Of a stretch of DNA of 64,000 nucleotides, positions 17,934 to 27,711 are shown piece by piece. The notes beneath the pieces were generated by a model. That model saw nothing but the letters and a program-made list of their open reading frames with translations, ran no database searches and was not told the DNA's origin. Origin of the DNA: Paracoccaceae bacterium (GTDB lineage: Bacteria > Pseudomonadota > Alphaproteobacteria > Rhodobacterales > Rhodobacteraceae); assembly GCA_033344815.1 (NCBI GenBank), contig JAWPMR010000001.1:4760136-4824135 (forward strand), read 5' to 3'. Within the stretch, counting starts at the first letter, position 1; each line of letters opens with the position of its first letter. A program made the position numbers and the translations under genes.

Positions 17934-19337
17934 TCAAGCCGCCGGCCGGTTGAGGTTGACCTGATTGCGTCCCTGCATTTTTGCCGCGTAAAGCGCCTTG
18001 TCTGCTGCATCCAGAAGGATGTTGGCATCCTGCTGTGGCGCGGGTTGTTGGGCGGTGCGCAGGCCCCCCAAAGTGACGCCGATGGATATGGTCACTTTTA
18101 TCAACTCACTGCTGCCGGGAATATGGAAACCGCGTCCGCCGATTTTGCGACACAGCCGACTGGCCGCGGCGCGCGCCTCTGTCATCGGGGTCGCGGGCAT
18201 CACGATCAAAAATTCCTCACCACCGATTCTGGCAATGAGATCAACGCCCCGCAGATTATCGCGCAGTCGCTTTGCGGTTTCGATCAGAACGGCGTCTCCT
18301 GAGGCATGGCCATAGTGGTCATTGATCTGTTTGAAGTGATCCAGATCGGCCACCATCACCGCAAAACTACGTCCGGTTGCGGCGGAATGTTCAGCGACGC
18401 GCGCCAGATGCGGCATTGCGTAGCGTCGGTTGTGCAGCCCGGTAAGTGGGTCAGAAACCGCGGCCTTTAGGCCTGTACGCACCGTCGCGCGCAACTGATC
18501 CGCGATGCGTTTACGACGCAGCATTGCTTTGACACGCAGGGTGAGTTCCAAAGGTTCAAAACCATCCGTCATCAAGTCATCTGCCCCAAGATCAAGCGCA
18601 TAGGCGCCAAGCCCAGGGTCGGGGCGCGCTTGCAGGACGAGAATGCCCGCGTGACGCGTGATGGCTGTCGCGCGGATTGCCGCCAGCAACCGCAGCACGT
18701 CGCTGGTGGACGTGTCATCCTCCGAAAGAGCGAGAATGAAAACGTCGGGAACCTTATCTGGCGACAGATCCCGCAAAGCCGTTTCAGGTGCAGCAAAATC
18801 CAGGGTCGTGCGCAACTTCGGGCGCAGGGTATTCACCCAGTTGTGTGCAAGCTGCGCGTCGGTTCCAACCAGCACGGCACGGCCAGCAGGGCCAAATTCA
18901 AGCGGTTCTTCTGCAAAACCGAGGGCTCTTGAGGTATCGTCGCGCATTTGCCATTCCGCCGCTGTGTTGTGGGCGCGGATCAGACTGCGAACGCGCGCCA
19001 AAAGAAGGGTGTCATCAATTGGTTTCAGCATGACATCCTGAACACCGGCCTCGAGCGCCTTGAGGCGCGTGTTAGAATCGGGCCTGCACCCGACGACCAT
19101 CATCGGGATTGCGCGGGTTTGCGGGCTGCGCTTGAGGCGACGGCACAACTCGGCCGCATCGCAATCCGGAAGCGCCATTGCCGATATGACGAGGTCAGGA
19201 TCATGTCTCAAAGCTGCAACGCAGGCCTCATCCGCCGTCGCCGCATGAACAACTTCATAGAAAGCTGACGCCAGTTTGACCTTGAGAACGATGCGATTTG
19301 TTGAGATCGCGTCTACTATGAGAATTTTGCCCTGCAC
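17934..19337 (-). CDS. PleD-like diguanylate cyclase with degenerate receivers
   Basis: A 467-residue protein of the PleD layout: receiver 1 (about 1-120), receiver 2 (about 150-275) and a GGDEF domain (about 290-460). The catalytic loop is GGEEF, and an inhibitory RxxD site (RGVD) lies five residues before it, so c-di-GMP synthesis and feedback control look intact. Receiver 1 is unusual: the phosphate-accepting Asp of PleD (D53) is Ala53 here, one of the two acidic pocket residues (position 10) is Ala, while Lys105 is kept. Receiver 2 also lacks the Asp. Control by phosphorylation is thus unlikely. The gene converges with the sigma operon and is divergent from the DUF3572 gene. Confidence 0.9.
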   Translation of the reverse strand: MQGKILIVDAISTNRIVLKVKLASAFYEVVHAATADEACVAALRHDPDLVISAMALPDCDAAELCRRLKRSPQTRAIPMMVVGCRPDSNTRLKALEAGVQDVMLKPIDDTLLLARVRSLIRAHNTAAEWQMRDDTSRALGFAEEPLEFGPAGRAVLVGTDAQLAHNWVNTLRPKLRTTLDFAAPETALRDLSPDKVPDVFILALSEDDTSTSDVLRLLAAIRATAITRHAGILVLQARPDPGLGAYALDLGADDLMTDGFEPLELTLRVKAMLRRKRIADQLRATVRTGLKAAVSDPLTGLHNRRYAMPHLARVAEHSAATGRSFAVMVADLDHFKQINDHYGHASGDAVLIETAKRLRDNLRGVDLIARIGGEEFLIVMPATPMTEARAAASRLCRKIGGRGFHIPGSSELIKVTISIGVTLGGLRTAQQPAPQQDANILLDAADKALYAAKMQGRNQVNLNRPAA

Positions 19338-20417: not shown

Positions 20418-20539
20418 CGCTTTGGTGCCACTGCACACTCCCTTCGTGTAAAAGCGACTGAATTCGTCGCGAATGAGACGGCCATAGGTTTCAACCTCTG
20501 CACTTTATGGATCAATCGACGCAGAGAAGGGTTGAATTA

Positions 20540-22102
20540 ATGGCCGAAGTGAAAAGCAAACGCAGAACCCGGAGCGGCGGTCGTGCGGGAGCCGCCACCC
20601 GGCGCGGTAGTGCTGTCATCGAACAAATGCCGTGGAAACCGCCTGTAAACATTGACCGTCCCACGGAGCCGCTGTCGCCCGAAGGCGTTGAGGCGATACA
20701 CGATGGTGCGATGCGTATCCTCGAAGAGGTCGGTGTCGAGTTCCTCAATCACGAAGCCCTCGAAGTCCTGCGCAAAGCAGGGTGTTTAGTGGACGGTGAA
20801 AACGTGCGCATGGGGCGTGACTTTGTGATGGAGTGGATTGCGCACGCGCCCTCTCAATTCACCCTGACACCGCGAAATCCTGACCGGGCGATTACCATCG
20901 GTGGTAAGAATCTGGTGTTTGGCAATGTGTCATCACCGCCCAACTATTGGGATATGGAGCGCGGCACGAAAGTTCCTGGCACCCGCGAAATGTGTCGTAA
21001 TCTGCTCAAGCTGACACAATACTTCAATTGTATCCATTTTGCGGGCGGATATCCGGTGGAGCCCGTGGATTTGCATGCCTCCGTGCGCCATCTGGATGTT
21101 CTGTATGACAAGTTGACCCTGACCGACAAAGTCATGCATGCTTATTCGCTTGGCAAAGAGCGGGTCGAGGATGTGATGGAAATGGTGCGTATTTCGCAAG
21201 GCCTGTCACATGAGGAATTTGACGCAAGCCCCAGATTATACACGAATATAAATTCGACCTCGCCGTTAAAGCATGACATCCCGATGCTGGACGGATGGAT
21301 GCGCATGGCGCGCCGCGGGCAGGGGCTGGTCGTCACGCCGTTTACTTTGGCGGGCGCGATGGCACCGGTCACAATGGCTGGTGCCGTGGCGCAATCACTG
21401 GCCGAATCCCTCTGTGCGGTCGTTTTGGCGCAAATCATCAACCCCGGATGCCCCGTTGCCATTGGGACGTTTACGTCCAACGTCGATATGAAATCCGGCG
21501 CGCCTGCTTTTGGCACGCCAGAATACATGCGCGCCACGCAGATGACCGGGCAACTGTGTCGATTCTATGGCTTACCGATGCGTTCAAGTGGCGTTTGCGC
21601 CGCCAATGTGCCGGACGGACAGGCAATGTGGGAGACGTCCAACAGTTTATGGGCGGCGGTGCAGTCTGGCACGAATATGGTGTATCACGCGGCAGGCTGG
21701 TTGGAAGGCGGGCTTATCGCGAGCCCGGAGAAATTTATTATGGATTGCGAAATACTTCAGCAAATCCAGAGGTATATGGATCCTGGCATCACGGCGACAG
21801 GGCCGGACGAAATTGCTTTGGATGCGATTAAATCCGTCGGCAATGCGGGTCATTTCTTTGGTATTCAACACACGCAAGATCGTTACACGACCGCGTTTTA
21901 CCAGCCGTTCCTGAGTGATTGGAAAAACTATGAGGGTTGGGAAGTTGCTGGAGCGGTTTGGACACCGGAGCGCGCGCATCTGATGTTCAAGGATATTATC
22001 GGCAGTTTTGAAGCGCCCAAAATGGACGAGGCAATCCGCGAAGAACTGGCAGATTTTGTCGCGCGGCGTAAAGCCGAAGGAGGCGCGCCGACGGATTTCT
22101 AG
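20540..22102 (+). CDS. MttB-family methyltransferase (non-pyrrolysine)
   Basis: Trimethylamine methyltransferase-family protein of 520 residues, a TIM barrel that moves a methyl group from a methylated amine to a corrinoid protein or other acceptor. I start at 20540 because GAAGGG lies eight bases before it; the ATG at 20507 has none. The head is basic (RRTRSGGRAGAATRRGS), as is usual in marine alphaproteobacterial members. There is no in-frame TAG, so pyrrolysine is absent, as in MtgB-like glycine betaine methyltransferases. The central GVCAANVPDGQAMWE and HAAGWLEGGLIASPEKF are well conserved. No corrinoid protein or reductive activator is adjacent. Substrate unknown; glycine betaine or proline betaine are candidates by family. 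Confidence 0.88.
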   Translation: MAEVKSKRRTRSGGRAGAATRRGSAVIEQMPWKPPVNIDRPTEPLSPEGVEAIHDGAMRILEEVGVEFLNHEALEVLRKAGCLVDGENVRMGRDFVMEWIAHAPSQFTLTPRNPDRAITIGGKNLVFGNVSSPPNYWDMERGTKVPGTREMCRNLLKLTQYFNCIHFAGGYPVEPVDLHASVRHLDVLYDKLTLTDKVMHAYSLGKERVEDVMEMVRISQGLSHEEFDASPRLYTNINSTSPLKHDIPMLDGWMRMARRGQGLVVTPFTLAGAMAPVTMAGAVAQSLAESLCAVVLAQIINPGCPVAIGTFTSNVDMKSGAPAFGTPEYMRATQMTGQLCRFYGLPMRSSGVCAANVPDGQAMWETSNSLWAAVQSGTNMVYHAAGWLEGGLIASPEKFIMDCEILQQIQRYMDPGITATGPDEIALDAIKSVGNAGHFFGIQHTQDRYTTAFYQPFLSDWKNYEGWEVAGAVWTPERAHLMFKDIIGSFEAPKMDEAIREELADFVARRKAEGGAPTDF

Positions 22103-22201
22103 CCCGCACCAGAAGCTTTCATAATCATTACAATTGAAAGTATTGGATATATCTTAACAGATTACGTGCATTCCTTAGGGACGTATGCGAGCGAGGCGTT
22201 C

Positions 22202-22789
22202 ATGCACGGGCTGGTTAATCGAGCAATACAGGGTTTTGTCATCGACTGCTATGGTACTGCGCAGTGGAATGCCGCGACGCGCCGTGCAAAAATCGGCGTC
22301 ACACATTTTGAAGCCATGTGGGTCTATGATGACGCGCTAACGCCAAGTATTCTGGCAGCAATTTGTGACGTGCTGGACCGGCCGTATGATGAATTGATGG
22401 AAGATATTGGTAGCTATCTGGTGTCTCATCCAAATTTGAAAGCGCTCCGGCGTCTTCTTCGTTTCAGTGGTGTAAATTACGTTGAATTCCTGCATTCCTT
22501 GGATGATTTACCCGACCGGGCGCGATTGGCTGTGCCCGAACTTGAGTTACCGCGGCTGGAATTGCGCGAACACAGCCCAAGCCGGTACAGTTTGCAATGT
22601 GCCGGCGATATTGAGGGATGCGGACATCTATTCAGCGGTATCTTGCGGGCGATGGCCGATGATTTCGGCGCATTGGTGTTTTTGGAACACGAAGGATCGC
22701 AAAATGGCGTGGAGACAATCTCAATTGCTTTGCTGGAGGCCGATTTTGCGACAGATCGCGGCTTTGAACTCTCTGCAGGCGCGCAATGA
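22202..22789 (+). CDS. H-NOX-fold protein lacking the heme-binding histidine
   Basis: A 195-residue protein of the heme NO/oxygen-binding (HNOB) family, start chosen at MHGLVNRAIQGFV with GAGG upstream, as H-NOX proteins open MxGxxN. The fold is clear: WVYDDALTP, LMEDIGSYLV, and FLHSLDDLPDRARLAVPEL. The last lines up without gaps with the region of soluble guanylate cyclase that carries His105, and the His is Pro104 here. The heme-propionate YxSxR motif reads HSPSR, so Tyr and Ser are also lost and only Arg stays. Heme binding in the usual way is thus unlikely. The stop overlaps the start of the HNOBA-GGDEF gene (ATGA), so this is the cyclase's partner protein. Confidence 0.85.
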   Translation: MHGLVNRAIQGFVIDCYGTAQWNAATRRAKIGVTHFEAMWVYDDALTPSILAAICDVLDRPYDELMEDIGSYLVSHPNLKALRRLLRFSGVNYVEFLHSLDDLPDRARLAVPELELPRLELREHSPSRYSLQCAGDIEGCGHLFSGILRAMADDFGALVFLEHEGSQNGVETISIALLEADFATDRGFELSAGAQ

Positions 22790-23817
22790 GCGAACCCTCT
22801 CTTTGCCATAAAATGCTGAGTGTAATCTGCCCCATGCATGTGGTTCTGGACGAGACCGGTTGCATTCATGCTGCCGGACCCACGGCGGAAAAACTGTTGT
22901 TGGGCAAACCTCTTATCGGCAAATCGTTTCTCGAAATCTTCGAGGTGAAACGCCCTCACGCGATAGACACGCTCGAAAAACTACGCGGCACAGAAGGCGC
23001 GAAATTGCATCTTCAGTTGCGTGTCCCGCCGCATCGCGAGTTGAAAGGCGTATTGATGGAAGGCCCGCAGGCAGGGCATTTGGTGGTCAACTTGTCCTTC
23101 GGTATCTCGGTCGTTGATGCGGTCCAGTATTACAGGCTGTCGGCCACCGACTTCGCGCCGACGGATCCAACGATTGAAATGCTTTACCTTGTCGAAGCGA
23201 AATCTCTGGCGATGGACGCCTCGCGTCACCTTAACCATCGTTTGCAGGGCGCGCGTGTGGCGGCGGAAAAACAGGCGATGACCGATACATTGACCGGTTT
23301 GAAAAATCGTCGCGCGATGGATCGGGAATTGGCGAATATGATCGCAAATGATGAAAATTTTGCGCTCATGCACCTTGATCTTGATTTTTTCAAGGCGGTG
23401 AATGACGATATGGGCCATGCTGCGGGTGACCATGTGTTGCAGGTTGTGTCTTCCATCATGCTGAATGAAACGCGTAAGCGTGACTGTGTCGCTCGCGTCG
23501 GAGGAGACGAGTTTGTCATACTTCTCAGAGAGTTGAACGACGTGAGCACGATCAATCAGATCGCGAAACGCATCATAAACAAACTGAGTGAACCCATCCT
23601 TTATGCCGGTGAACTTTGCGAAGTATCGGCAAGTGCAGGCACAACCCTGTCGAGCCTGTACGAGTTTCCCGATGCAGATAAGTTGCTGGATGACGCAGAT
23701 GCCGCACTCTATCGTTCAAAGCATTTAGGGCGCGGGCGGCACACTTTCTACTCAGACACGCTCACCAGAAAATTGACAGATTTAGACGAAGCCCGCACCC
23801 CGGACGCCATGAATTGA
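22786..23817 (+). CDS. Diguanylate cyclase with HNOBA sensor domain
   Basis: A 343-residue soluble signalling enzyme. Residues about 10-160 form an HNOBA domain, the partner domain of H-NOX found in soluble guanylate cyclases: MHVVLDETGCIHAAGPTAEKLL, FLEIFEVKRP, LKGVLMEGPQAGHLVVNLSFGISVVDAV. A helical coil (about 145-175) leads to a GGDEF domain with MTDTLTGLKNRRAMD, VGGDEFVILL and DADAALYRSKHLGRGR. The inhibitory RxxD (RKRD) lies five residues before GGDEF. It should make c-di-GMP under control of the H-NOX-like protein before it, with which translation is coupled. Confidence 0.9.
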   Translation: MSEPSLCHKMLSVICPMHVVLDETGCIHAAGPTAEKLLLGKPLIGKSFLEIFEVKRPHAIDTLEKLRGTEGAKLHLQLRVPPHRELKGVLMEGPQAGHLVVNLSFGISVVDAVQYYRLSATDFAPTDPTIEMLYLVEAKSLAMDASRHLNHRLQGARVAAEKQAMTDTLTGLKNRRAMDRELANMIANDENFALMHLDLDFFKAVNDDMGHAAGDHVLQVVSSIMLNETRKRDCVARVGGDEFVILLRELNDVSTINQIAKRIINKLSEPILYAGELCEVSASAGTTLSSLYEFPDADKLLDDADAALYRSKHLGRGRHTFYSDTLTRKLTDLDEARTPDAMN

Positions 23818-24118: not shown

Positions 24119-24556
24119 TTGACGAAACTATTTGCTCCAGACGTGCAAGACCTTGAACGCATAACTCTCAAGTTGAGGACGGCGAGGACTTATTTTTTTA
24201 GGTGGGAAGGCGATAGTGAGCCGAACCATTTGCTGCAGGCTGATGGGGTTTTCAATCCTGAATTTGTCATGTGCCAGCAAGCTCGCGTCCTTGCCGATCA
24301 CGTTAAAGCGGTTGGAAAACCTCTATTCATTGATGACATTTATGCGCACCCTCTCATTTCTAGAAAAGACATCGTTTTCGGGCATTGTATCCGTGCTTTC
24401 GCAGGCACGCCCGTATTTGAAGATTCGAGCGTGGTACGTGGGGTGTTGTGCACCGTGGATAATAGCAAACGCGATTGGAGTGGCGAGGACATGACCGTTT
24501 TGCGAGCGGCATCGCGATGTCTTGCGGCAGATCTTGAATACATAGAATGTGCATGA
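24119..24556 (+). CDS. Stand-alone GAF-domain protein
   Basis: A 145-residue protein made of one GAF-like domain: FRWEGDSEPNHLLQADGVFNPEFVMCQQA, then KPLFIDDIYAHPLISRKDIV, AFAGTPVFEDSSVVRGVLCTVDNSKRDWSGEDMTVLRAASRCLA, the standard closing strands and helix. It has no output domain. The start is a TTG at 24119 with AGGAAG upstream, and no better ATG exists in frame. A tiny frame (ATG at 24099 to a stop at 24116) overlaps the ribosome-binding site. It stands 185 bases before the histidine kinase on the same strand and could feed a signal to it. Two Cys (in VMCQQA and VLCTVD) might serve as ligands or redox sites; this is speculative. Confidence 0.75.
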   Translation: MTKLFAPDVQDLERITLKLRTARTYFFRWEGDSEPNHLLQADGVFNPEFVMCQQARVLADHVKAVGKPLFIDDIYAHPLISRKDIVFGHCIRAFAGTPVFEDSSVVRGVLCTVDNSKRDWSGEDMTVLRAASRCLAADLEYIECA

Positions 24557-24593: not shown

Positions 24594-24740
24594 TGTTTTT
24601 ATGGCGTATTCCGGCATCAAGCGAACAGGCGGTCAGTCGCGCAGTCGGCAAATCACAAAACGGCACTTATTTGATCAATCTGGCTCAAGACCGATGGCTC
24701 CGTGCAGGCCAACCATTGAGCAGTGCAAAGTGGCTGCTGC

Positions 24741-27086
24741 ATGAAATTTTCGTTGGGCATGATATTGGCGCTTTGTCTGGCGGGATTACAGTTTGTTGCC
24801 GTGACCATTGTCGTATTTTCGTCTTTTCTGACGTCAGAGCGCGTACTGCTTGAGCATGCGCGCGATCTGCTCAGTGATGTCGGTAACAATACGATTGAAC
24901 ACTCCAAGGGTTTTTTGAAACCCGCGAAAGGGGCGGCAGAACTGGCCACCCGGTTGGCCGAAAATAGGGTGATTTCGAGTGATGATCGCATGCAGCTCGA
25001 CAAACTTCTTTTTCAGCAATTGCAGATATCACCTCAGTTTTCTGGCGTGTTTTACGGCGATGAGAAGGGCAACTTTGTTTATGTGATGCGCAGTGACGGT
25101 CCAGGGCCTTTCCGCTCCAAACTCATCTCGCAAGACAATAGTGCACGTTCGGTCGAGCTCACTTGGCGCCAGAATGACTATGAGGTTGTTCAAACAGCCA
25201 CAGATCCGACTGACACCTATGATCCACGGAACAGGCTTTGGTACATCAATGCACGTGAAGAGCGAGAGAGCATTTGGACAGACCCCTATATTTTCTTCAC
25301 TTCCCAGCAACCGGGTATCACTGCGGCGTCACCGGTTTTTGACGCGACAGGCCAAATTCGGGGTGTTGTCGGTGTAGATATCGGGATTCATGCCATTTCT
25401 GACTTCCTGTCTCATTTGAATATTGGGAAAAGTGGTAAGGCTTTGATCTTGAACAAGAATGGAGACGTCATTGCGCATCCTGATCAAAACCTTATCCGAC
25501 AGAAAAACCCTGATGGAACCTTCAGCTTTGTAAATATTGGCGAGATTGATGACCCTGTCGCGCGCGCGGCTTTTGGAGATCTGATGCAAAAGCCGGAAAT
25601 TTCCGTTGAAACCGAGATTTCCTCACGGTTTAATTACGGAGGCTCAACCTATGTCTCCATGGTGATGCCCATCATCAGTGATGAACTGCCCTGGACCATT
25701 GCGGTCTATGCGCCGGAAAATGACTTCACCGGCGAGATCAAGGCCAACCGAACGATGAACGTCTGGATAGCCGCATTCATTGCTTTGATTACCGGCGTTT
25801 TCGGGCTCGTTCTGGCCAACTACATTCACAAACCAGTGCGTGCTTTTGCGGTGCGGGCGTCGCTGGTCTCTCAGGGTGAAGTATCTGCTTCCGAACCCTT
25901 GCCAAAGACTTACCGGGAACTGGAACGCGCAAACGAAACTCTCGTTCAGGCAATCGCAGAGAGAAAGATCTCTGAAGCCGAATTCGGTCGCACTTTTGAC
26001 CTAGCCTCGCGCGGTATGGCGCAGATTCAGGCACGAACCGGGAAATTCATCAGGGTCAATTCAAAATTTGCCGACATGTTGGGGTATACCGAAGCAGAAA
26101 TTCTGCAATTGAACGTGCATGATATTTCTCATCCGGATGATCCGGTATCTTCATTTTTCTTCGAGAATGGGATGCATGAAAGATCAGGTTATCTGCATGA
26201 AAAACGGCTTTTGCGTAAAGATGGCAGCATCATTTGGGTCAGCGAAAACGTCATCGTGATCAGAGATGACAGCGGTAAATCCCTGCACGCAGTGGTCACG
26301 GTTGACGATATCACAGAGCGCAAAGCGGCCGAACGCGAAATCCAACAACTTCAATGGGATTTGTCCCACTCTTCTCGCGTTAACGTGATGGGACAGATGG
26401 CCAGCAGTTTAGCACATGAGTTGAACCAACCTCTTCTGGCAATTACGCAGAATATGGACACGGCGCTCTATGCATTGGAGAAAAAAACCGAGACCCCGCA
26501 GGATCTGAAGACCCTTCTCGAGGAAACGGATCGCAACGCGCATCGCGCCGGCGACATCATCAAGGCCTTGCGCGGTTTCGTCAAAAAAGAAGGTGTAGAA
26601 AAGGCGGAGTTTGATTTTGAAGAACTGTTGGAACAAACGCTCCACCTGATGCGCTCTGAGGCCAAGGACAAAGGGATCAAAATTGGCGTAAATGCGCCTG
26701 CGTTGGAGCGTGTATACGGATCCCGTGTGCAAATTGCGCAAGTGCTGGTAAATCTCTTGCGCAACGCGATCGAGTCAATTTCGGACAGTGAAGAGGCCAC
26801 TGGAGAAATAGTATTGAAAGCGGAGAACACTGATTTTGGCACGTTGATTTCGGTGACGGATTCCGGACCCGGTTTCGATGAAGGCGCGAATTTGTTTGAG
26901 CAGTTTGAAACAACCAAGGATGACGGCATGGGACTCGGACTGTCCATCTGTCGCACAATTGTCCAGTCACACGGTGGTAAACTTTGGTATCAACCGGATG
27001 CGCAGGGGAAAGCGCGCTTCCTTTTCTCCCTTCCATCTCTTGCGCCGAAATCCCAAAATATGAAGCATGATGACGTCAGCGCCTGA
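24741..27086 (+). CDS. Cache-PAS sensor histidine kinase
   Basis: Membrane kinase of about 781 residues, from ATG 24741 (MKFSLGMILALCLAGLQF). A first membrane helix (about 5-27), a long periplasmic double Cache domain (about 30-330, with DPRNRLWYINAREERESIWTDPYIFF typical of dCache), a second helix (about 340-360), then a PAS domain with PAC tail (about 410-530: RTGKFIRVNSKFADMLGYTEAEI). The kinase core has the phosphoacceptor His in SLAHELNQPL (FixL/DctB type), an N box in VLVNLLRNAIES, G boxes DSGPGF and GMGLGLSICRTIVQSHGG. It should phosphorylate the regulator that overlaps it by 20 bases. Cache domains bind small ligands such as organic acids or amines outside the membrane; the ligand is unknown. 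Confidence 0.92.
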   Translation: MKFSLGMILALCLAGLQFVAVTIVVFSSFLTSERVLLEHARDLLSDVGNNTIEHSKGFLKPAKGAAELATRLAENRVISSDDRMQLDKLLFQQLQISPQFSGVFYGDEKGNFVYVMRSDGPGPFRSKLISQDNSARSVELTWRQNDYEVVQTATDPTDTYDPRNRLWYINAREERESIWTDPYIFFTSQQPGITAASPVFDATGQIRGVVGVDIGIHAISDFLSHLNIGKSGKALILNKNGDVIAHPDQNLIRQKNPDGTFSFVNIGEIDDPVARAAFGDLMQKPEISVETEISSRFNYGGSTYVSMVMPIISDELPWTIAVYAPENDFTGEIKANRTMNVWIAAFIALITGVFGLVLANYIHKPVRAFAVRASLVSQGEVSASEPLPKTYRELERANETLVQAIAERKISEAEFGRTFDLASRGMAQIQARTGKFIRVNSKFADMLGYTEAEILQLNVHDISHPDDPVSSFFFENGMHERSGYLHEKRLLRKDGSIIWVSENVIVIRDDSGKSLHAVVTVDDITERKAAEREIQQLQWDLSHSSRVNVMGQMASSLAHELNQPLLAITQNMDTALYALEKKTETPQDLKTLLEETDRNAHRAGDIIKALRGFVKKEGVEKAEFDFEELLEQTLHLMRSEAKDKGIKIGVNAPALERVYGSRVQIAQVLVNLLRNAIESISDSEEATGEIVLKAENTDFGTLISVTDSGPGFDEGANLFEQFETTKDDGMGLGLSICRTIVQSHGGKLWYQPDAQGKARFLFSLPSLAPKSQNMKHDDVSA

Positions 27087-27711
27087 ACCAGAACAGACCG
27101 TTTTTATCGTTGATGATGATGAAGACATCCGGACGTCATTGTCGCGCGCGCTCAACACACGTGGGTATGCCACCCGCGTATTCCCCTCTGCTCAAACCTT
27201 TCTGGATGCCTATGATGCGGATTTGTCGGGATGTTTGATTCTGGATTACGGGATGCCGCAGATGTCCGGTCTCGATCTTCAACGCGCCTTGGTGGGGCGG
27301 GGGGCGTCGTTACCAATTATTTTCATTACAGGTCACGGTGGTGTGCCCGAATCCGTTCAGGCGATGAAACTTGGTGCGGTTGATTTTCTGGAAAAGCCAT
27401 TCCGGCAGGAAGTCCTCATAAAGCAGATTGACGCGGCGTTGAAGCTGGATGCACAAAGCCGTCGTGGCCGCGCCAGAGCGAGAGATGCGAGGAGGCGTTT
27501 TGAAAACTTGACGGAGCGGGAGCGCGAAATTGCGCGGTTACTCGTATCTCAACCGTCCAGTTCGTCTAGTAAGGATCTGGCCCGCCAACTCGATATCAGC
27601 CCGCGCACAGTTGATCATCATCGGGCGCGGGTATTGGAAAAAATGCGGGTAAACTCCGTCGCTGAGCTGGTGGATTTGTGTATCTCAACCAGCCTTTTTG
27701 ACCATGCCTGA
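27067..27711 (+). CDS. FixJ/NarL-type response regulator
   Basis: A 214-residue transcription factor: receiver domain with acidic VDDDED, phosphate-accepting Asp in LILDYGMP, ITGHGGVPESVQAMKLGAVDFLEKPF (FixJ-like), then a basic linker and a LuxR-type helix-turn-helix LTEREREIARLL...KDLARQLDISPRTVDHHRARVLEKM. The turn before the first binding helix, normally VxxGxSNKEIA, is VSQPSSSSSKDLA: three residues longer and Ser-rich. ATG at 27067 or 27070. Translation is coupled to the kinase. GGTAGTT-type boxes before and after the pair may be its targets. Confidence 0.92.
   Translation: MMTSAPEPEQTVFIVDDDEDIRTSLSRALNTRGYATRVFPSAQTFLDAYDADLSGCLILDYGMPQMSGLDLQRALVGRGASLPIIFITGHGGVPESVQAMKLGAVDFLEKPFRQEVLIKQIDAALKLDAQSRRGRARARDARRRFENLTEREREIARLLVSQPSSSSSKDLARQLDISPRTVDHHRARVLEKMRVNSVAELVDLCISTSLFDHA

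Follow-up and report, generated by a model that had tools for sequence, protein, structure and literature searches.

The window (the whole stretch of 64,000 nucleotides that was analysed) encodes an H-NOX protein in which proline replaces the axial heme histidine and all of the classical heme contacts are absent, in one operon with a predicted diguanylate cyclase. We favour, at a probability of about 0.6, the reading that such Pro-type H-NOX proteins would be heme-independent partners that restrain their cyclase. An H-NOX protein lacking the histidine and lying beside a cyclase has already been described in print, and the window adds no new kind: the new kind of input proposed in the initial annotation was preceded by Kumar & Spiro (2017) and Lee-Lopez & Yukl (2022). 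What is added here is the kinship with the operon of D. shibae, whose reportedly NO-responsive H-NOX keeps the histidine, the repeated changes of the axial site, the purifying selection and a conserved promoter element.

The operon and its products

The coordinates of the features are given in Table 1. The hnoX-like gene and the dgc gene overlap by four bases (ATGA at 22786–22789). An in-frame GTG at 22166 upstream of hnoX would add 12 residues; the ATG at 22202 agrees with the aligned relatives. In a profile search the H-NOX protein scored 82 bits against Pfam HNOB (PF07700; cut-off 25.5), with the match beginning at residue 2 of the ATG form, and a scan of the protein against NCBIfam returned no model at E ≤ 0.01. 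A profile search of the window's genome (one contig of 5.08 Mb) gave this protein as the single HNOB match. Its structure as predicted by AlphaFold2 (mean pLDDT 88.2) shows an H-NOX fold, and the best match to it found in the PDB by Foldseek was Nostoc H-NOX (TM-score 0.80–0.82). The nearest named relatives of the protein are from Roseobacter species.

From its domains and motifs, the partner is classed as an HNOBA–GGDEF cyclase with intact catalytic motifs; the GGDEF (residues 239–243) and RxxD (RKRD, residues 230–233) sites were correctly read in the initial annotation. The HNOBA match of the window cyclase scored 21.3 bits (E = 2.1e-4), just below the Pfam cut-off of 23.4; HNOBA was matched at E ≤ 0.001 in 31 of the 34 partner proteins scanned (best 2.7e-9). 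The predicted structure consists of an N-terminal α/β domain, a long helix and the GGDEF domain, and its top Foldseek match was a PAS-GGDEF-EAL protein. The partner test covered the 231 subfamily rows besides the window, except for L212, which has no room downstream. In all 230 testable loci a relative of the window cyclase was found downstream; 228 of these carry the GGDEF motif and 226 the RxxD site, and the partnership holds alike for Pro, His and other residues at site 104. The fold (by prediction) and the coupled cyclase have thus both been kept, as had been claimed.

Table 1. Features of the hnoX–dgc operon in the window
Feature	Position	Strand	Description
TTGG-N7-TTAA element	22143–22157	+	Upstream of the operon; TTAA 48 bases before the ATG
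hnoX-like gene	22202–22789	+	195-residue H-NOX (HNOB) protein lacking the axial heme histidine
Pro104 codon (CCC)	22511–22513	+	Column of Nostoc H-NOX His105
HSPSR	22571–22585	+	Residues 124–128; YxSxR motif as supposed in the initial annotation
C-A-G-D-I	22598–22612	+	Residues 133–137; true counterpart of the YxSxR heme-propionate motif
dgc gene	22786–23817	+	343-residue predicted diguanylate cyclase: PAS-like HNOBA region, signalling helix and GGDEF
HNOBA-like N-terminal region	22801–22983	+	Residues 6–66 matched
GGDEF domain	23275–23736	+	Residues 164–317; 136 bits
RxxD inhibitory-site motif (RKRD)	23473–23484	+	Residues 230–233
GGDEF active-site motif	23500–23514	+	Residues 239–243

The axial site and the heme contacts

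Pro104 occupies the column of the axial histidine in three concordant alignments: with the relatives, with Nostoc H-NOX, a protein of known structure whose His105 aligns to position 104 of the subfamily profile, and with ten outgroup H-NOX proteins, of which nine have His and one has Gln at this site. As a control, the axial column was found to be His in all of the 30 best HNOB matches of the family search (L002–L031). Misalignment of Pro104 was rejected on these grounds. The initial annotation had asked how many roseobacter homologues share the proline and had allowed that close homologues with His might expose a sequencing error; site 104 is Pro in all 80 of the nearest named loci and in 186 of the 232 distinct subfamily rows, and a sequencing error as the source of Pro104 is ruled out by the former count. 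The description of an H-NOX fold with proline at the heme-histidine position is therefore upheld by the HNOB score, the three alignments and the predicted fold.

The count of lost contacts had to be revised. The YxSxR motif had been read as HSPSR, a comparison that was off by nine residues: YQSTR of Nostoc H-NOX aligns to residues 133–137, where residues 133, 135 and 137 of the window protein are C, G and I. The arginine is thus lost as well, and four of the four classical contacts are absent, not three. Across the 232 rows, Tyr133 occurs in one, Ser135 in 58 and Arg137 in ten, and the three occur together in none. Of the 186 Pro rows, 133 have L, I, V, M, F or A at residue 137 and six have Arg there; at residue 135, S, P, G and A predominate. 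The tyrosine is commonly, not invariably, replaced by cysteine (Cys133, 154 of 232 rows). Loss of YxSxR is no proof of heme loss when taken alone, because the D. shibae protein, reported in two papers to be a heme/NO sensor, has only the arginine of the motif (C-x-W-x-R), though it keeps the axial histidine.

Distribution of the subfamily

An HNOB protein of some kind was found in at least 296 of the 394 sampled genomes of the window's family. The fetched HNOB proteins comprise canonical H-NOX and a distinct subfamily that includes the window protein, separated by a gap in score (at least 140 versus at most 121 bits). A survey of 289 genomes across the class gave three matches of subfamily strength, all in the window's family; three genomes of other families had weaker matches only. 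The subfamily is widespread in the window's bacterial family.

At site 104, the 232 distinct rows have Pro in 186, His in 16, another residue in 29 and a gap in one (L282). These rows are made up of the window, the Paracoccus denitrificans row (L172), 77 sequences of the 80 named loci closest to the window (a set biased towards Pro) and 153 others. The 153 were taken from the HNOB matches listed and from part of the hits in 80 of 130 lower-scoring genomes; they were not picked by closeness to the window, but they are not a random sample: Pro is present in 107, His in 16, another residue in 29 (six Arg, five Gln, four Ala, three each of Ser and Asn, two each of Glu and Thr, and Lys, Asp, Tyr and Gly once each) and a gap in one. 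Two loci of the window's own genome (L001 and L175) were left out and 19 groups of identical sequences were merged before counting; in 13 of these groups a locus that would have counted with the 153 was merged into a named Pro row, so that the Pro count in that set is low by up to 13. All but one of the 232 rows (231) retain Pro117, the conserved proline next to the heme. Gly70 and Gly146 are each present in 231 of the 232 rows and in ten of the ten outgroup proteins; these positions, in our own numbering, are candidate counterparts of the published hinge glycines. A few copies (in G036, G061, G271 and others) were flagged as having an in-frame stop or as being in two pieces, and some of the stop flags may merely reflect a match that runs past the stop codon.

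Comparison with known H-NOX systems

Kumar & Spiro (2017) reported that P. denitrificans H-NOX, like that of Rhodobacter sphaeroides, lacks the axial histidine, and cited Iyer et al. (2003) and Plate & Marletta (2013) on its absence (PMC5588039). According to the same source, hnoX overlaps a cyclase gene, the hnoX mutant shows a partial defect in biofilm formation and the dgcAB mutant makes biofilm in excess; from these opposite effects the authors suggest that H-NOX inhibits DgcA (PMC5588039). They nevertheless model the protein as NO-responsive, together with an H-NOX-independent NO pathway (PMC5588039), and the 2022 review by Lee-Lopez & Yukl likewise keeps the NO-responsive model (PMC8738867). 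A 2025 paper states that c-di-GMP could not be measured in P. denitrificans to support inhibition of DgcA (PMC12582929). Lee-Lopez & Yukl (2022) described the cluster, seeded with P. denitrificans Pden_3719/HnoX and its partner DgcA, as Group 5, in which fewer than 10% of members are reported to have the proximal histidine and most have Pro; the group is described as keeping the Gly hinge residues and as lacking a conserved Cys, and is said to beg the question of how NO or anything else is sensed (PMC8738867). Cys133 is frequent in our rows, although the group is reported to be without a conserved Cys (PMC8738867).

The window protein is classed as a Pro-type Group 5 H-NOX, a placement made by sequence match and not by rebuilding the published network. 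It is 35.6% identical to P. denitrificans H-NOX (tblastn, E = 1e-22), which scored 226 bits, lies with the window above the gap in subfamily score and has Pro at the axial site (ELPGRVKL). The axial Pro, the absence of YxSxR and the overlapping GGDEF gene are common to the window and to Group 5 and P. denitrificans. GGDEF, HAD and MTTB, all of which the window has, appear as abbreviations in the legend of a gene-neighbourhood figure that spans all five groups (PMC8738867). The window belongs to the roseobacter branch, at about 36% identity to P. denitrificans, and does not differ from it in kind.

D. shibae H-NOX has been reported to bind NO and to inhibit the neighbouring cyclase Dgc1 (PMC7232146; PMC8846402); the primary study is that of Bedrunka et al. 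(2018), taken here through these two papers. The D. shibae protein belongs to the same subfamily as the window protein (40% identity) and its gene forms the same type of operon together with the gene for a like cyclase, but it keeps the axial histidine (DDLHDRARL) and the arginine of YxSxR (C-x-W-x-R), neither of which is present in the window protein. Locus L152 was identified as D. shibae from a plasmid contig of its genome that is identical over 3000 bases to the DFL 12 plasmid NC_009956.1. Its HNOB protein, the genome's one match among those listed, is encoded 2.97 Mb into the chromosome of 3.79 Mb, a position that fits locus number 2815, and is probably the published Dshi_2815 protein.

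The canonical NO-sensing H-NOX proteins (Nostoc Alr2278, sGC β1, Shewanella) share the fold and Pro117 with the window protein, which differs from them in lacking the axial histidine and the Tyr, Ser and Arg of YxSxR. The sGC α 'pseudo-H-NOX' has no heme, its pocket being blocked by an N-terminal extension (PMC8196705). Like the window protein, which is presumably heme-less too, it is an H-NOX fold without heme kept together with a nucleotide cyclase; the sGC α domain, however, sits in the cyclase chain, whereas the window H-NOX is a separate protein and has no extension of the sGC α type, as HNOB begins at residue 2 and the GTG at 22166 would supply at most 12 more residues. V. cholerae H-NOX has been reported to perform heme-free redox signalling in vitro through a zinc/Cys site, and it keeps the axial histidine, described as absolutely conserved in its groups (PMC7108781); Group 5 is reported to lack a conserved Cys (PMC8738867). 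In the open-licence papers searched, neither a heme spectrum nor a binding assay was found for any Pro member, and a search there for H-NOX proteins of Rhodobacterales lacking the histidine gave nothing further.

The subfamily offers a natural series of orthologues from a single operon type: the D. shibae protein, reported to respond to NO, has His, and its relatives have Pro, Arg, Gln or something else at the site. Such a series of His and Pro orthologues makes the question of Group 5 sensing, posed in 2022 (PMC8738867), directly testable. It also calls for caution, as the annotation 'heme NO-binding' within the subfamily mostly covers proteins without the axial heme ligand.

History and constraint

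A tree was built without site 104 and with five outgroup H-NOX proteins, all of which have His. Every member of two early-branching groups of four sequences, to one of which D. shibae belongs, has His, and other His rows are dispersed among Pro rows. The minimum number of changes between His and non-His on the tree is 11 or 12, against a mean of 15.3 and a minimum of 13 when the labels were shuffled (100 shuffles). With 12 changes against a shuffled mean of 15.3, His is nearly scattered and the site is labile; the axial site has changed many times within the subfamily. With His in all five outgroup proteins, an ancestral His within the subfamily is plausible, but the deep branches have little or no support (values of 0 in several early ones), so that this polarity is tentative. 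As many residues are tolerated at site 104, proline itself may have no specific role.

The Pro forms are under purifying selection: in 110 close Pro–Pro pairs, which are not mutually independent, dN/dS had a median of 0.073 and a maximum of 0.224. Asp68, Arg83, Arg149, Asp154 and Leu158 are nearly invariant in the subfamily, occur in none of the ten outgroup proteins and do not differ between His and Pro members, as expected if these residues serve the partner. The pattern of constraint is that expected where contact with the partner matters and heme does not.

Residue 135 was Trp or His in 11 of the 16 His104 rows and in 12 of the 138 others (Fisher's exact test, 2e-7, for a Trp/His set picked post hoc), and Ser8 was present in 14 of 15 His104 rows and 43 of 138 others. 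Phylogenetically independent pairs gave a single usable pair for the His104 associations (sign test, p = 1). In view of the post hoc set and the one usable pair, we make no claim of an association at residue 135; Trp or His beside His104 may mark members that still bind heme, as a feature that is not phylogenetically independent.

Proposed mechanism and alternatives

The initial annotation had suggested either a heme-free sensor using another ligand or a constitutive adaptor controlling c-di-GMP. With the contacts gone and the predicted fold and the cyclase partner kept, the protein is best read as an adaptor or sensor that works independently of heme, and the mechanism can be outlined conditionally. 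In canonical H-NOX, NO is reported to break the Fe–His bond and to shift helix F, which bears the histidine (PMC8196705); one group favours heme flattening with the Fe–His bond kept (PMC3765488). As no Fe–His bond is possible without the histidine, the Pro form may rest in a state like the NO-bound one. In D. shibae H-NOX the NO-bound state is the one reported to inhibit the cyclase, and by this analogy restraint is proposed. The Pro form would carry no His-ligated heme and hence would not detect NO as H-NOX proteins usually do; it would dock on the cyclase through a surface common to the His-bearing members and would restrain c-di-GMP synthesis in a state like the NO-bound form with its Fe–His bond broken. 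Regulation would then lie in the expression of the genes or in some signal other than a gas that acts on the H-NOX/cyclase pair. The phenotypes of the P. denitrificans mutants fit restraint of DgcA by H-NOX. A more tentative extension, which we consider doubtful, is that across one large bacterial family an NO sensor has repeatedly been turned into a heme-free regulatory subunit, with the axial histidine exchanged and the operon with its cyclase unchanged; the Pro form would be 'NO-always-on', would keep its cyclase repressed and would be ruled by transcription or by a new ligand.

Heme might instead still be bound through another ligand (for instance His98 or Cys133) or through none, with NO or CO being sensed. 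The Tyr and Ser of YxSxR are missing from the D. shibae H-NOX too, a subfamily member that is nevertheless listed among heme/NO sensors, and the P. denitrificans protein lacking the histidine was modelled as NO-responsive by Kumar & Spiro; His98 is present in 162 of the 232 rows, and Cys133 is nearly as frequent. The D. shibae protein retains its axial histidine, however, and Arg137 is found in only 6 of the 186 Pro rows. We regard continued heme binding as unlikely. His98, named in the initial annotation as a possible ligand, was rejected as a substitute, since it is not invariant and is equally common in His104 members (12 of 16); it also lies six residues from site 104 on the same helix, which is not a whole number of turns.

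BAY 60-2770 is a heme mimic. The best Foldseek match to the window model is a Nostoc H-NOX holding this compound, so that an H-NOX fold can take ligands other than heme, and an emptied pocket that binds a non-gas ligand would make the protein a sensor of a new signal. The purifying selection on the H-NOX domain and the retention of Pro117 are consistent with such a role, but the four former contact positions vary a lot and include no invariant polar residue, and in sGC α, also heme-less, the pocket is reported to be plugged and not reused (PMC8196705); we consider this reading improbable. A functionless, decaying remnant or a sequencing error might be invoked from the 11–12 changes at the axial site and the few copies elsewhere flagged as split or with stops. 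The Pro in every one of the nearest named loci, the low dN/dS and the partner kept in all testable loci speak so strongly against it that we give it almost no weight, and deletion of hnoX in P. denitrificans is reported to have phenotypes (PMC5588039). Decay of hnoX was rejected on the partner count (230 of 230) and the median dN/dS (0.073). The heme-independent partner that restrains its cyclase is the reading retained.

Promoter element and neighbourhood

A TTNG-N7-TTAA element is found upstream in 123 of 230 loci (20 shuffles: mean 1.6, maximum 4), often some 30–38 bases ahead of the start of the matched domain. The CtrA consensus used for D. shibae is TTAA-N7-TTAAC (PMC4046655), and genes reported to be under the control of the CtrA phosphorelay include that for D. 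shibae HNOX (PMC7232146) and the R. capsulatus cyclase gene rcc02629 (PMC9143464), which adjoins the HNOX homologue rcc02630 (PMC7232146). The exact consensus TTAA-N7-TTAA is absent upstream of the window hnoX, even with one mismatch allowed, and upstream sequences gave no clear enrichment of an FNR/Dnr box. From its sequence, the element may be a degenerate CtrA box, or it could be another promoter element.

An mttB-like trimethylamine methyltransferase gene (20507–22102) precedes hnoX on the same strand, and a relative of mttB is found in this arrangement in 135 of the 197 loci with enough upstream sequence. A second diguanylate cyclase, PleD-like with receiver and GGDEF domains, is encoded at 17934–19337 on the minus strand, and a cyclase occupies the same place in Phaeobacter sp. 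G2. In that strain (L173) the operon, with DUF3572, HAD and mttB, is on a 120-kb plasmid (CP104104.1). Downstream in the window are a small GAF-domain protein (24119–24556) and two open reading frames (24723–27711) that by eye resemble a sensor kinase followed by a response regulator. Elsewhere in the window's genome (contig 1, 944971–945546, minus strand; L293) one FIST-domain protein was found (74 bits), FIST being the domain type of the NO sensor NosP (PMC8846402).
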